Source: Methylobacter sp.
GTDB lineage: Bacteria > Pseudomonadota > Gammaproteobacteria > Methylococcales > Methylomonadaceae
Length of the DNA stretch: 64,000 bases
NCBI GenBank assembly: GCA_026399025.1
Contig: JAPLRU010000116.1
Location: 1-64,000, forward strand
Direction: 5' to 3'
Within the stretch, counting starts at the first letter, position 1. Each line of letters opens with the position of its first letter. This document shows positions 27,870-44,120 of this stretch, one piece after another. The position numbers were made by a program, and so were the translations under genes. The notes under the pieces are model-generated. The model saw nothing but the letters and a program-made list of their open reading frames with translations, did not search any database and was not told the origin of the DNA.

Positions 27870-27987
27870 GTTGGCTTGTAGTTATTCGCCTCCCCCTTTG
27901 AAAAAGGGGGATTGAGGGGGATTTATTTAAAAAATCTCCCCTAACCCCTCTTTTTCAAAGAGGGGGACTGAATAACTACGTTGGCTT
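27870..27987. mobile_element. 102-bp MITE copy A (27878-27979) with 8-bp target-site duplication gttggctt
   Basis: Termini GTAGTTATTC...GAATAACTAC; TSD gttggctt at 27870-27877 and 27980-27987; 100/102 identical to the element at 41985-42086. Confidence 0.93.
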
Positions 27988-37475: not shown

Positions 37476-38642
37476 ATGAATATTCATGAATACCAAGCTA
37501 AGCAGTTGTTTTTGCAGTATGCGATACCGGTGCCTGAGGGCAGGCATACGCTAAGCGCGGAAGGGGCCGAACAGCTTGCCGAGGAATTGGGCGGCGACGG
37601 TTGGGTGGTTAAAGCCCAGGTTCATGCCGGCGGCCGCGGTAAAGTCGGCGGCGTCAAGTTGGCTAAAAGCCTGCCTGAAGTGGTCGAATTTAGCCGGGGT
37701 ATGCTCGGAAAACGCTTGGTCACTCAGCAGACCGGCGCGGAAGGCTTGCCGATTAATTCATTGCTGATAGAAAAAATCTACCCGATCAAGCGCGAGTTAT
37801 ATCTGAGTTTGGTGGTTGATCGTGGTTCCGAGCGTATCATTTTTGTCGCCTCGGCAGCGGGCGGCATGGATATCGAAACCGTCGCCCACGAAACCCCGGA
37901 AAAAATTATCTCGGTGCCGGTGCATCCGTCCGCAGGCTTGCAAGGCTATCAATGCCGGAAAGTCGCTTATGCTTTGGGCCTAAAAGGCCCGCAGATCAAA
38001 GCCTTGGGCAAAATCATGCAAGGCTTGTACGACCTGTTTTTAGCCAAGGACGCCAGCCAAATCGAAATCAACCCGTTGATAGAAACCGACACCGGCGAGT
38101 TGATGGCGTTGGACGCCAAAATCAATTTCGACGATAACGCGGTCGAGGCGCATCCCGACATTCTGGCGATGAAAGACCCCGACCAGGAAGATGAAAAAGA
38201 AAACAAAGCCCAACAATTCGGGCTCAATTACATCACCCTGGAAGGTAATATCGGCTGCATGGTTAACGGTGCGGGACTGGCGATGGCGACCATGGATTTG
38301 GTTAAGCTCAAAGGCGGGCAACCGGCTAATTTTCTTGACGTCGGCGGCGGCACCAATGTCGAAAAAGTGTGCGAAGCATTCAAGCTGATCCTGTCGGATC
38401 ACAGCGTCAAAGCGGTGTTGGTCAATATTTTCGGCGGCATCGTGCAGTGCGACATTATCGCATCAGGCATTTTAGCCGCCATCGAACAGGTTCACGTCAC
38501 CATCCCCGTGGTGGTGCGTCTGGAAGGCACCAATGCCGAACAAGGCCGAGCCTTATTAAACAACACCGGACTTAATCTTTACGCGGCGGACGATTTGGCG
38601 CACGCTGCGGAACAAGTTGTAGCATTGGCGGAGGCCGCATGA
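37476..38642 (+). CDS. sucC: ADP-forming succinate-CoA ligase subunit beta
   Basis: [54 protein letters not shown]. Confidence 0.95.
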
Positions 38643-39505
38643 GCATTTTAATCGACAAAGATACTAAAGTAATTTGCCAAGGCTTTACCGGCAAGCAAGG
38701 CACGTTTCATTCCCAGCAAGCGCTGGATTACGGCACGCAATTAGTCGGCGGCGTGACTCCGGAACGTGGCGGCGAAACCCATTTGGGATTGCCGGTGTTT
38801 AATACCGTACAGGATGCCGTGGACGGTACCGGAGCCACCGCCAGCGTTATTTACGTACCGCCTTTTTATGCAGCGGATGCGATTCTGGAAGCGGTCGATG
38901 CCGGGATTAAACTGATCGTCTGCATCACCGAAGGCATACCGATATTGCAAATGTTGCGCGTTAAAGCGGCGATGGCCGGTACCGGCGCGTTATTAATCGG
39001 CCCCAACTGCCCCGGCGTGATTACTCCCGGCGAATGCAAAATCGGCATCATGCCGGGCAAGATTCATTTGCCCGGCGTTATCGGCATCGTATCGCGCTCA
39101 GGCACTTTAACTTATGAATCGGTGCATCAAACCACCGCGCAAGGCTTGGGGCAAAGCACCTGCGTCGGCATCGGCGGCGATCCTATTCACGGCATGAACT
39201 TCGTCGATGTGCTGAGCCGTTTTCAAGCCGATGAGCAAACCAAAGGCATCGTGATGGTCGGAGAAATCGGCGGCGGCGAAGAAGAAGATGCGGCGGACTA
39301 TATCAAAGCGCATGTCACCAAACCCGTGGTTGCGTATATCGCAGGACAAACCGCGCCTCCCGGCAAACGCATGGGTCATGCCGGTGCGATTGTGACCGGC
39401 GGCAAAGGCACGGCGGAAGGTAAGGTTGCAGCGCTTAAAGCGGCGGGGATTGAGGTGGTGAGTTCTCCGACCGATATTGGCGTGGCGATGAAAGGGTGTT
39501 TGTAA
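38639..39505 (+). CDS. sucD: Succinate-CoA ligase subunit alpha
   Basis: [58 protein letters not shown]. Confidence 0.97.
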
Positions 39506-39556: not shown

Positions 39557-40846
39557 ATGGAAAATACCAAAATAATTTCAAAAATCACTACCAAAAATTA
39601 CCGGAACTTGGTGAATGAAGACGGTATTGCCTTAAATAACCTGAATATTTTGATTGGCTCAAATGGTTCGGGTAAAAGCAATTTGGTAGCGATACTGGAG
39701 TTTTTTAAAAATTGCTTAACGCCTAGCTCTGATTTGGAAAGCAGAGGAATCACCGCTTTTCAAGATGCATTATCCAAGCTTGGATACAATATTTTAGATG
39801 CTTATATAAATAAGTCAGCAACTGTTGACTTGAAGTTTGAGTTTCCTGATTTGCATTCTGCAGGTGGAATGGTATTTGAGTTATCTCTTTATATAGATAA
39901 ACCTACTGTATTTATTAATAAGGAATCGCTAAGAAATATAAGGTTAGATACTGATTTAAAATTATCACCTTATTTCCGAAGTCATAATCCAAGTGGTAAA
40001 GGTGTCGTTTTGGTAAGGGATGAGAAAAATGGAAAATATTCTTCTCGTTCTGAGAACTTGGAAGAAATACCTACGAATGAATTATCGTTAATCGCTATTC
40101 CAAAGCTATTAATAGAAAAAGGAATTCTTTCGCCCGAACAAATTCCTTTATACAAGGCCAGCCGTGATTTAGAGGAAACAGTCAAAAAGTGGCAGTTTTA
40201 TAATGCCAACGAAATGGATTTAGCCAAAATCCGAGGCGAAAGACCCAAAGTGGGATCAAGTGATGTGATACTTGCCAAATCGGGCGAAAACTTGCCAGCC
40301 GTTTTAGACAACTTAAGTAATCACATAAAATACGGCATCGATTTTGATGAGCGTATCAATAACGCAATGAAAGAAATATTGCCGATGACCAAACGCATCA
40401 AAACTTCCAGAGAAGGCATGTCGCTGACAGTTCGATGGTATTTCGACGACATGGAAGAGCCTTTCTATCTTGACGACATGTCGGACGGCACGGTGCGCAT
40501 GTTGTGCTGGGCGACTATTTTGCACTCACCGATTTTGCCGACGTTATTAGTCATTGATGAGCCCGAATTGAGTTTGCATATAGCCTGGATGGGCACTTTA
40601 GCGAACTGGATAAAGCAAGCCTCTCAAAAAACTCAGATTATCATTTCAACGCATAGCCCCGACTTATTGGATTACTTTACCGATTGCGCCGGCGATGTGA
40701 TTTGTTTTGAAAAAACTCAACCTAAAGGACACTTTAAAGCACAGAAACTACCTGAAGCTATCATAAAAGACAAAATAGCGGAGGGCTGGCAGTTGGGTGA
40801 TTTATATCGAACCGGCGATGAGATTATCGGGGGCTGGCCTTGGTAA
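39557..40846 (+). CDS. ABC/SMC-like AAA family ATPase (candidate defence effector/sensor)
   Basis: Walker A IGSNGSGKSN, signature-like DDMSDGTVRML, Walker B LLVIDEPELSLH, H-loop ISTHSPDLLD. Confidence 0.9.
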   Translation: MENTKIISKITTKNYRNLVNEDGIALNNLNILIGSNGSGKSNLVAILEFFKNCLTPSSDLESRGITAFQDALSKLGYNILDAYINKSATVDLKFEFPDLHSAGGMVFELSLYIDKPTVFINKESLRNIRLDTDLKLSPYFRSHNPSGKGVVLVRDEKNGKYSSRSENLEEIPTNELSLIAIPKLLIEKGILSPEQIPLYKASRDLEETVKKWQFYNANEMDLAKIRGERPKVGSSDVILAKSGENLPAVLDNLSNHIKYGIDFDERINNAMKEILPMTKRIKTSREGMSLTVRWYFDDMEEPFYLDDMSDGTVRMLCWATILHSPILPTLLVIDEPELSLHIAWMGTLANWIKQASQKTQIIISTHSPDLLDYFTDCAGDVICFEKTQPKGHFKAQKLPEAIIKDKIAEGWQLGDLYRTGDEIIGGWPW

Positions 40847-41580
40847 TTTGGTTGCTTGCCGGTGGTGGAGAATCTGAATTAGGTGAGCGGGAAGGCGAAA
40901 TAAGAGGCATAGTTCATTTTTTTGAAAAACATTTTCCCGATTTTACTTTTCACAGAATTACACCTGTAAGAAATAAACGAACCCCGGATAGAGTCAAGCC
41001 AAATGCTGCCATTAATGCGCTGGGTAAAACCGGCGACGCATTTGTTAAACAAATTAAAGCTAAGTTGGAAGATAAAATTAAATACCAGAGCTTGCCCGAT
41101 GCGATATTAATTCTGGACGATTTAGATTGCAGCTGTCATGTTGAAAAGAAATCGTTATTTGATAATACCGTTAATCAGGCCGGAAACGGCGCATTCAAAG
41201 AAATTCAGCGGATTATAGGCTTTGCCGCACCTGAACTGGAAGCGTGGGTGATTGCGGATTGGGATAATACCATCGCCAGACATATCGACTTTAGGCAAAA
41301 CCATAAAGCCATGCAGCATTGGTTGAATGATAAAGCCGTCTCTTTTGATAGGCCGGAAACATTCAGTTTCTATGATCAGAGTAAAAACTCTTGCCACGAT
41401 AAACTTTCCGCTCTCCTAATCGAATCCTCGCAACAACACATAAATCAAACTGTTTATTCAAAAGCAAAGCATACGCCTTTTTTACTTCACCAATCTTTAA
41501 AACCCGATGTTGTGGCTGGAAAATGTCCCCTCTTCAGGGATTTTTTTACCCAACTACAAAATCTAAACCAAAGTCCGTAA
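40840..41580 (+). CDS. DUF4276-like (putative Toprim-like) partner of the AAA ATPase
   Basis: LLAGGGESELGEREGEI (acidic motif after a beta-strand), ILILDDLDC, FAAPELEAWVIADWD; TTG start overlapping the ATPase stop by 7 nt. Confidence 0.65.
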   Translation: MVIWLLAGGGESELGEREGEIRGIVHFFEKHFPDFTFHRITPVRNKRTPDRVKPNAAINALGKTGDAFVKQIKAKLEDKIKYQSLPDAILILDDLDCSCHVEKKSLFDNTVNQAGNGAFKEIQRIIGFAAPELEAWVIADWDNTIARHIDFRQNHKAMQHWLNDKAVSFDRPETFSFYDQSKNSCHDKLSALLIESSQQHINQTVYSKAKHTPFLLHQSLKPDVVAGKCPLFRDFFTQLQNLNQSP

Positions 41581-41597
41581 TACGAATGTACCCTTCA

Positions 41598-41650
41598 ATG
41601 ATCCTAAAAATAGCTCTAGCCAAAACCGCCATTCATATCCATGATACCCA
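41598..41650 (+). pseudogene. Decayed duplicate of the nadE 5' end
   Basis: ATGAtCCTAAAAATAGCtCTAGCCaAAACC matches nadE 42510-42539 at 27/30; next GCCATTCATatCCaTGAT matches nadE 42591-42608, with the 51 bp between them missing. Confidence 0.75.
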
Positions 41651-41714
41651 CTGCACTGTCTTTTTGGCTTGAAACCGATCTTAGCAGATACATCAAAATT
41701 CAAAAGGAAACGTC

Positions 41715-41951
41715 ATGAATACCGCCGAAATCATTTATGAAAAATCCAAAGCCTTGCCTGAATCCTTTGCGCTGGAAGTGCTGGATTTTATTGGCTATCT
41801 GGAACAAAAAAACCTTAAAGCCTCGCCGTTTGAAAAAACGGATATAGAACAAGGCTTCGGTTGCGCGGGCTATGCAGGTGAAACTAAATCATTAAACGAT
41901 ATGGAACAGGCTATTGCCGATGATATTAAGCAGCAATGGCGTAAACTATGA
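41715..41951 (+). CDS. VapB-like/DUF2281-type antitoxin
   Basis: MNTAEIIYEKSKALPESFALEVLDFIGYLEQKN; ATGA overlap with the PIN-domain ORF start. Confidence 0.7.
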   Translation: MNTAEIIYEKSKALPESFALEVLDFIGYLEQKNLKASPFEKTDIEQGFGCAGYAGETKSLNDMEQAIADDIKQQWRKL

Positions 41952-42465
41952 TTGCTGTTGATACCAATATTTTAGTGCGCTATGGTAATTATTCACCTCC
42001 CCCTTTGAAAAAGGGGGATTGAGGGGGATTTATTTAAAAAATCTCCCCTAACCCCTCTTTTTCAAAGAGGGGGACTGAATAACTACGCGCTATGCAGTAA
42101 ACGATGACCCCGTTCAAGCGCAGCAAGCTAAAGCTGTACTCAAAAACACTGAATCAATTTTTGTTAGTAAAACAACGTTATTGGAGTTTGAATGGAGGCT
42201 CAGGTCGGCATATAAATTGTTCCGCGAATCGATTTTACATTCAATTTTAACAATATGCGGCCTGCCCACTGTAACTGTTGAGAGTGCGTGGCAAGTTGCT
42301 CAAGCCTGCGAGCTTTATAGTAAAGGCCTGGATTTTGCCGATGCACTTCATTATTGCTCCGCGAATAATAGCATTGAAAATTTCTACACCTTTGATGAGC
42401 AATTTATTAAAAGCGGCAAATTATTAAATTTAAAAATCAGTAAACCAGGTGGCATCCTAGATTAG
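41948..42465 (+). pseudogene. PIN-domain (VapC-like) toxin disrupted by a MITE
   Basis: MIAVDTNILVRY interrupted after 12 codons; removing 110 bp (102-bp element + one 8-bp TSD) restores MIAVDTNILVRYAVNDDPVQAQQAKAVLKNTESIFVSKTTLLEFEW...GLDFADALHYCSANN...FYTFDEQF to the stop at 42465. Confidence 0.92.
41977..42094. mobile_element. 102-bp MITE copy B (41985-42086) with 8-bp TSD gcgctatg
   Basis: TSD gcgctatg at 41977-41984 and 42087-42094; element starts GTAATTATTC and ends GAATAACTAC; differs from copy A at 2 of 102 positions. Confidence 0.95.
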
Positions 42466-42509
42466 CCCCGCTGTTTGCAATTCTTTACAGGCTTTAATAT
42501 TTCCTCCAC

Positions 42510-44120
42510 ATGACCCTAAAAATAGCCCTAGCCCAAACCAACTTCCTAGTCGGCAACATCGCCGCCAATGTCGACAACATCGTCAACGCCGCCATTCATG
42601 CCCGTGATGAACTGGGCGCGGAGCTGATCGTCTTTCCCGAACTGACCCTGACTGGCTACCCGGCGGAAGACTTATTATTGCGCGCCGATTTTATTGCCGC
42701 CGCCAATAACGCGCTTTATCAACTGGCCGACCTCGTGGCCGGTATTGCGTTGGTGGTCGGTTTTCCGGAACGCGATGGCGATAAGCTTTACAACAGCGCG
42801 GCGGTGTTGCACCAAGGCGCGATACTGGCTTGTTACCGCAAACGGATGCTGCCTAATTACGGCGTGTTTGACGAGCAACGCTATTTTACGGCGGGCAATC
42901 AACCCTGCGTGTTTGAATTTAACGGCACCTTTATCGGTCTGACTATTTGCGAAGATGTTTGGAAAGACGGGATTATCGAAGATAACCAACAAGCGGGCGC
43001 GGAATTAGTGCTGACGCTGAACGCCTCGCCGTTCAATTCGGGAAAAATCCATCAACGCGAAGCGGTTATTTGCACTCAGGTTAAAGCCGCGCGGATTCCG
43101 TTGGTGTATGTCAATCAAGTCGGCGGTCAGGATGAATTGATTTTCGACGGCGCGTCTTTTGTTGTGGATGCGGACGGCGAAATTATTTTCCGTGCGGAAG
43201 AGTTTAAAGAACAAATCAGCGTGGTCGAATTTGACGGCAATCAACCGCTGAAAAACACCTGCGCGTCGCTTTACACTGAAGTCTCCAGCGAATATCGGGC
43301 CTTGGTGCTGGGCATTAAAGATTATGTGCGCAAAAACGGGTTTCAAGGCGCGATTTTGGGCTTGTCCGGCGGCATCGATTCGGCGCTGGTTCTGGCACTG
43401 GCCGTCGATGCGTTGGGCGCCGATCACGTTGAAGCGGTGCTGCTGCCGTCGCGTTATACGCAGGATATGAGCAACGAAGATGCGCTGCTGGAAGCGCAAC
43501 TGTTAGGCGTTAAACATCATATTATTCCGATAGAGCCCGCTGTGAATGCGTTCACCGGCATGTTGGCCGATATTTTTGCAAATTCCGCAAAAGACGCTAC
43601 CGAGGAAAACATTCAGGCGCGTAGCCGCGGCGTGATTTTAATGGCGCTGTCGAACAAACAGGGCAAGCTGTTATTGACTACCGGTAATAAAAGCGAAATG
43701 AGCGTGGGTTATGCGACTTTATACGGCGATATGTCCGGCGGATTTGCGCCGATCAAGGATGTACCCAAAATGCTGGTTTACCAATTGGCGCGTTATCGCA
43801 ATACCTTATCTGCAGTGATACCGGAACGGGTCATTATCCGTCCGCCTTCGGCCGAACTTGCGCCCGATCAGGTCGATGCCGATTCCTTGCCGCCCTACGA
43901 GGTACTGGACCCGATATTGGAACGTTATATCGAGAAGGATCAATCCGCCGATGACATCATCGCCGCCGGATTCAGCCGCGAAGATGTGGCGAGAGCCATC
44001 AGCCTGGTCGACCGCAACGAATATAAACGCAGGCAATCGCCGCCGGGAATCAGGATTACCGGCCGGGCGTTCGGCCGGGATCGGCGCTACCCGATCACTT
44101 CCGGTTATCGGGGCATTTAG
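42510..44120 (+). CDS. nadE: Glutamine-dependent NAD+ synthase (nitrilase + NadE)
   Basis: LIVFPELTLTGYPAEDLLLR, LTICEDVWKDG, LGLSGGIDSALVLALAVDALG. Confidence 0.96.
   Translation: MTLKIALAQTNFLVGNIAANVDNIVNAAIHARDELGAELIVFPELTLTGYPAEDLLLRADFIAAANNALYQLADLVAGIALVVGFPERDGDKLYNSAAVLHQGAILACYRKRMLPNYGVFDEQRYFTAGNQPCVFEFNGTFIGLTICEDVWKDGIIEDNQQAGAELVLTLNASPFNSGKIHQREAVICTQVKAARIPLVYVNQVGGQDELIFDGASFVVDADGEIIFRAEEFKEQISVVEFDGNQPLKNTCASLYTEVSSEYRALVLGIKDYVRKNGFQGAILGLSGGIDSALVLALAVDALGADHVEAVLLPSRYTQDMSNEDALLEAQLLGVKHHIIPIEPAVNAFTGMLADIFANSAKDATEENIQARSRGVILMALSNKQGKLLLTTGNKSEMSVGYATLYGDMSGGFAPIKDVPKMLVYQLARYRNTLSAVIPERVIIRPPSAELAPDQVDADSLPPYEVLDPILERYIEKDQSADDIIAAGFSREDVARAISLVDRNEYKRRQSPPGIRITGRAFGRDRRYPITSGYRGI

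Follow-up and report, generated by a model that had tools for sequence, protein, structure and literature searches.

The genome studied here (G000) belongs to a methane-oxidising Methylobacter. In the window, the whole 64,000-nucleotide stretch of DNA that was analysed, the core genes sucD and nadE enclose a defence-like operon and a toxin-antitoxin (TA) block, all read on the forward strand. The left core-gene border, sucD (38639-39505), is an open reading frame with 92-98 % amino acid identity to relatives in the genus. It is followed by a gene for an AAA_21 ATPase (39557-40846; Pfam PF13304, 2e-33), for which HEC-01A was the best PADLOC hit (1.1e-47), and by a gene for a DUF4276 protein (40840-41580; PF14103, 1.4e-7) with a weak PADLOC match to HEC-01B (5e-5). 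HEC-01 is a candidate defence system in PADLOC and, with a HEC-01A-like ATPase beside a HEC-01B-like partner, the operon is a predicted anti-phage system. The operon (39557-41580) is itself a mosaic, the ATPase being nearer to the Methylobacter relative G014 and the DUF4276 end nearer to the relative G012, and it appears to have arisen by recombination of G014-like with G012-like alleles. The TA block (41695-42466) comprises a DUF2281 antitoxin-like gene (41715-41951; PF10047, 2.6e-7) and a PIN-domain toxin gene (41948-42465) interrupted by a MITE of 102 bp (41985-42086). The right core-gene border is intact nadE (42510-44120), encoding NAD synthase (PF02540, 6.3e-74; PF00795, 2.4e-34) and preceded by a leader of 43 bp (42467-42509). 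No integrase or transposase ORF was seen between 39506 and 42509 in the ORF list and the Pfam results.

Between the operon and the TA block lies a relic of the start of nadE. The first piece (41598-41627) is identical to codons 1-10 of nadE (42510-42539) at 27 of 30 positions and the second (41628-41645) to nadE nucleotides 82-99 (42591-42608) at 16 of 18, while the 51 bp of nadE between them (42540-42590) are absent. These two matches and the gap had been described in the original prediction; their coordinates are exact and the similarity is far above chance. When the sucD-nadE interval was compared with nadE nucleotides 1-130, the relic gave the top ungapped score of 24 and exceeded every one of 2,000 dinucleotide shuffles, which reached a maximum of 18. 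The second piece taken alone reached p = 0.003 in a shuffle test, and a shuffle test of further extension detected no nadE similarity beyond ~41645 (p ~0.8). The likeness between relic and intact nadE begins at the ATG, and the sequences 5' of the two copies are unrelated. The nadE-start 30-mer, searched with up to 3 mismatches in 23 whole genomes of the genus, occurs in two copies only in G000 and G015 and singly in the other genomes having it; the backwards 30-mer, included as a control, gave 0 matches in these 23 genomes. Apart from G015, no comparable relics were found at other Methylobacter loci by blastn with each genome's own nadE or by the 30-mer pattern.

The origin of the relic becomes apparent from related genomes. 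In three Methylobacter relatives (G003, G012 and G014) the AAA_21/DUF4276 operon ends within ~30 bp of nadE with nothing intervening, and this operon is the same as that at 39557-41580 here. The 90 or more bp 5' of the relic align with the HEC-01/nadE junctions of all three. Positions 41480-41660 show unbroken homology to the G012 junction, from the tail of the DUF4276 gene through the spacer and the ATG into the first 30 nt of nadE, so that the relic occupies precisely the position at which nadE begins in the HEC-01 version. In an anchored ranking over 64 nadE leaders the 45-nt leader of the relic scored 29 with L060, 18 with L059 and 11 with L074, followed by 6.5 for the next leader. These three loci are exactly the HEC-01 carriers in the set. 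The ranking replaced a shuffle test on 24-nt leaders, the low p values of which included the unrelated locus L063.

Intact nadE carries a different leader, resembling that of a TA-type haplotype. Locus L081, from a member of another genus of the Methylococcales (G069), has a DUF2281-antitoxin/PIN pair directly 5' of nadE and lacks HEC-01. The TA block shares 88 % nucleotide identity with L081 on one side of the MITE and 82 % on the other, and the homologue of the toxin gene in L081 (PF01850 PIN, 80 % amino acid identity) is open and contains no MITE. L081 also ranked first of the 64 leaders for intact nadE, at 10.0 and by a modest margin over the next (9.5), the close runners-up being a group with a shared CTTTAA motif. 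A search for a plasmid source of the antitoxin region found no match. Across the MITE the PIN gene resumes with a perfect 8-bp repeat, GCGCTATG (41977-41984 and 42087-42094), and its two halves are collinear with L081. The genome contains at least 40 near-identical copies of this MITE, another one lying within the window at 27878-27980. The original prediction had counted the MITE as part of the block linked to the duplication of the nadE start. Located inside the PIN gene with a TSD of its own, it is a separate, later insertion and did not contribute to the joint. The toxin gene is broken here and the antitoxin is orphaned; antitoxin and relic are probably leftovers.

Both haplotypes, their tandem order in G000, the homology of the relic and the insertion of the MITE are all observed, here or in relatives. 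Most likely the relic represents the displaced start of nadE from a haplotype of the form sucD-HEC01-nadE that is joined in tandem to a DUF2281/PIN-nadE haplotype. Such a seam between haplotypes is favoured over a target duplication by the TA/MITE block on two grounds: the leaders of the two nadE starts belong to different haplotypes, and in L081 TA and nadE are adjacent in the absence of HEC-01. The proposal that the block came with, or caused, a duplication of the nadE start is partly supported, on comparison of the sucD-nadE junctions of the relatives, in so far as a true nadE remnant lies at the boundary of a foreign block; the remnant is however better read as the nadE start of the HEC-01 version than as a copy made by the TA block. 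The relic ends at 41645 and the TA homology begins at 41695, and continuity between the two was seen in none of the relatives compared. The 49-bp joint region (41646-41694) shows no similarity to nadE and no match among the fetched loci, in which the right-hand parent was not found either. The illegitimate junction is placed within these 49 bp, and at 41645/41695 the locus displays a non-homologous joint of the kind that characterizes homology-facilitated illegitimate recombination (HFIR).

We infer that HFIR acted here at an integrase-free hotspot flanked by core genes. A single recombination event would have joined the sucD-HEC01-nadE haplotype to a haplotype with DUF2281/PIN directly 5' of nadE. 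The exchange would have relied on core-gene homology on one side, in nadE if the TA block entered or in sucD if HEC-01 entered. The other side would have been an illegitimate or short-homology join of the nadE of the first haplotype, after about nucleotide 99, to the region 5' of the antitoxin. The nadE start, now orphaned, would then have decayed by substitutions and the 51-bp deletion, and the MITE would have inserted into the PIN gene later. The identity profiles of nadE and sucD contain no switch marking a homologous crossover and no signal for which block came second. As these profiles contain no crossover point, the one-sided mechanism is deduced from the structure of the locus, and the order of events is likewise proposed, for either direction. 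The genome contains members of the ComEC and DprA families. Both families occur also in bacteria not known as competent, and their presence is compatible with DNA uptake but no proof of it.

The strongest competing explanation holds that a TA unit entered a sucD-HEC01-nadE genome at the start of nadE, duplicating ~100 bp or more of nadE. It would produce the same formal layout of left copy, insert and right copy, single-copy empty sites exist in G003, G012 and G014, and such long target duplications are known for restriction-modification genes in Helicobacter pylori (PMC1643837; PMC3031569). The insert would however need to terminate at the ATG of nadE and yet carry a leader best matching that of TA-carrying L081, and L081 itself has TA and nadE adjacent without HEC-01 or a relic. 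The matches between relic and nadE (27/30 and 16/18) comprise 48 nt, too few to judge the identity of the two copies at birth. An insertion with target duplication is considered unlikely, although it deserves to be kept in mind. Far less credible is an integrated element with the nadE start as attachment site, relic and nadE start then representing attL and attR, comparable to the integration of SXT at prfC. A direct repeat of 30 bp (90 %) does flank the block and, within the genus, synonymous sites vary unusually little at the nadE start (0.157 versus 0.336), but the block is without integrase, the other cargo-bearing loci of the genus, save that of G015, have no second nadE start, and a HEC-01/nadE junction by itself already predicts the relic. 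Furthermore, L081 carries this TA block, and comparable loci showed no such repeat. A mis-join in the draft assembly is slightly less probable still. The genome comprises 138 contigs, and a MITE repeated at least 40 times lies in the block; against this, the PIN gene is correct across the MITE, the only repeat, with its perfect 8-bp repeat and the order of L081 kept, and the sequence of the relic is found only here, within one contig. Chance similarity, conceivable for so short a matched stretch, was rejected on the score of 24 against a shuffle maximum of 18 and on the fit of position and flank to the HEC-01/nadE junction of the relatives.

The second genome with two nadE starts, G015, provides a weaker case. 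On its contig C78 (L161, 3939-4310) a 5' fragment of nadE of 372 nt directly follows HEC-01, in the arrangement sucD-HEC01-nadE. The fragment is 95.7 % identical to nadE of G014 and ends at a palindromic repeat. Intact nadE of G015 is 84 % identical to the fragment and opens another contig, whose first bases are a part of this palindromic repeat. The fragment may be a second truncated nadE start or may instead reflect a mis-join at the palindromic repeat.

The interval between sucD and nadE serves as a cargo slot in the genus. The spacing in Methylobacter varies from ~0.1 to 2.3 kb with at least 5 types of cargo, among which HEC-01, C5 methylase with HNH, Exo_endo_phos, AAA with DUF4435, ParE/Unstab_antitox and PIN-type pairs; Uma2 occupies the slot in neighbouring genera. 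As expected of an integrase-free hotspot, sucD and nadE flank varying cargo in related genomes, and no integrase was seen in the slot, the scope in the other genomes being the largest ORFs of each interval. Other loci display joints of their own. In L066 (6077-8000) an Unstab_antitox start is fused to a DUF2281 tail in a chimeric antitoxin ORF, and pairwise comparison showed that its segments match L070, L081, L062, L072 and L071 successively. In L071 (7545-8000) an antitoxin start is fused to a PIN segment, and in L075 (5607-7525) an orphan antitoxin stands ahead of a methylase. Judged by their sequences, these joints are further recombination scars in the slot; the two chimeric joints that were read closely share short sequence only. 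Shared cargo type showed no significant association with similarity of the nadE 5' end (permutation p = 0.25). Synonymous diversity in nadE increases away from the slot (rho 0.16, p 2e-4), a trend that is weaker in genomes without sucD-nadE adjacency (rho 0.09, p 0.05).

It is conceivable, though doubtful, that methanotrophs use the conserved nadE start as a recurrent recombination point, where whole defence/TA cassettes are exchanged or stacked together with the gene start. If so, truncated nadE starts would be a general signature of cassette stacking, with G015 as second candidate.

Several other features of nadE were observed. Codons 2-11 (42513-42542 in the window) have a synonymous diversity of 0.157 in the genus, about half the mean over sequence windows (0.336), and this dip is weaker in genomes where nadE is not beside sucD; it could be due to translation-start constraint or to recombination. 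In L063, L072 and L075 the stop of the HNH gene and the start of nadE share bases (ATGA), which leaves no gap between this cargo and nadE. A further full-length nadE, with 70 % identity, lies away from sucD in one genome of the genus (L031, G019:C6).

The relic is a well-resolved example of an already known kind of recombination scar. It represents a physical scar of turnover in a defence/TA slot with no visible mobile element, both parental arrangements being found in living relatives, and truncated starts of flanking core genes may provide a simple searchable marker at other integrase-free defence hotspots. No description of the sucD-nadE slot was found in a limited literature search. In insertion with long target duplication, an insert lies between direct copies of a target segment (Nobusato et al. 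2000, via PMC1643837). Direct copies of the nadE start likewise flank the TA block, but their different leaders point to two haplotypes rather than one duplicated target. In HFIR, one homologous anchor and one non-homologous joint leave foreign DNA beside retained resident sequence (PMC3240628). The locus resembles this in the nadE start retained beside the joined block and in the non-homologous joint, and differs in that the process is deduced from an old scar, in which the anchor may lie on either side and the exchange may have run in either direction. HFIR has also been proposed for the T6SS effector-immunity modules of Vibrio cholerae, which are sequentially displaced beside a conserved anchor and leave remnants (PMC5361080). 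There too a new module lies next to the anchor with an older remnant kept; here, however, the cargo is of the defence/TA type and lies between two housekeeping genes, and the remnant is the core gene's own start. Integrase-free hotspots turn over their cargo through recombination in the core genes on either side, for which double homologous exchange was inferred (PMC5635113). The turnover of cargo between sucD and nadE, conserved core genes without mobility genes between them, agrees with such hotspots, but unlike a double homologous exchange the relic scar requires at least one non-homologous joint.
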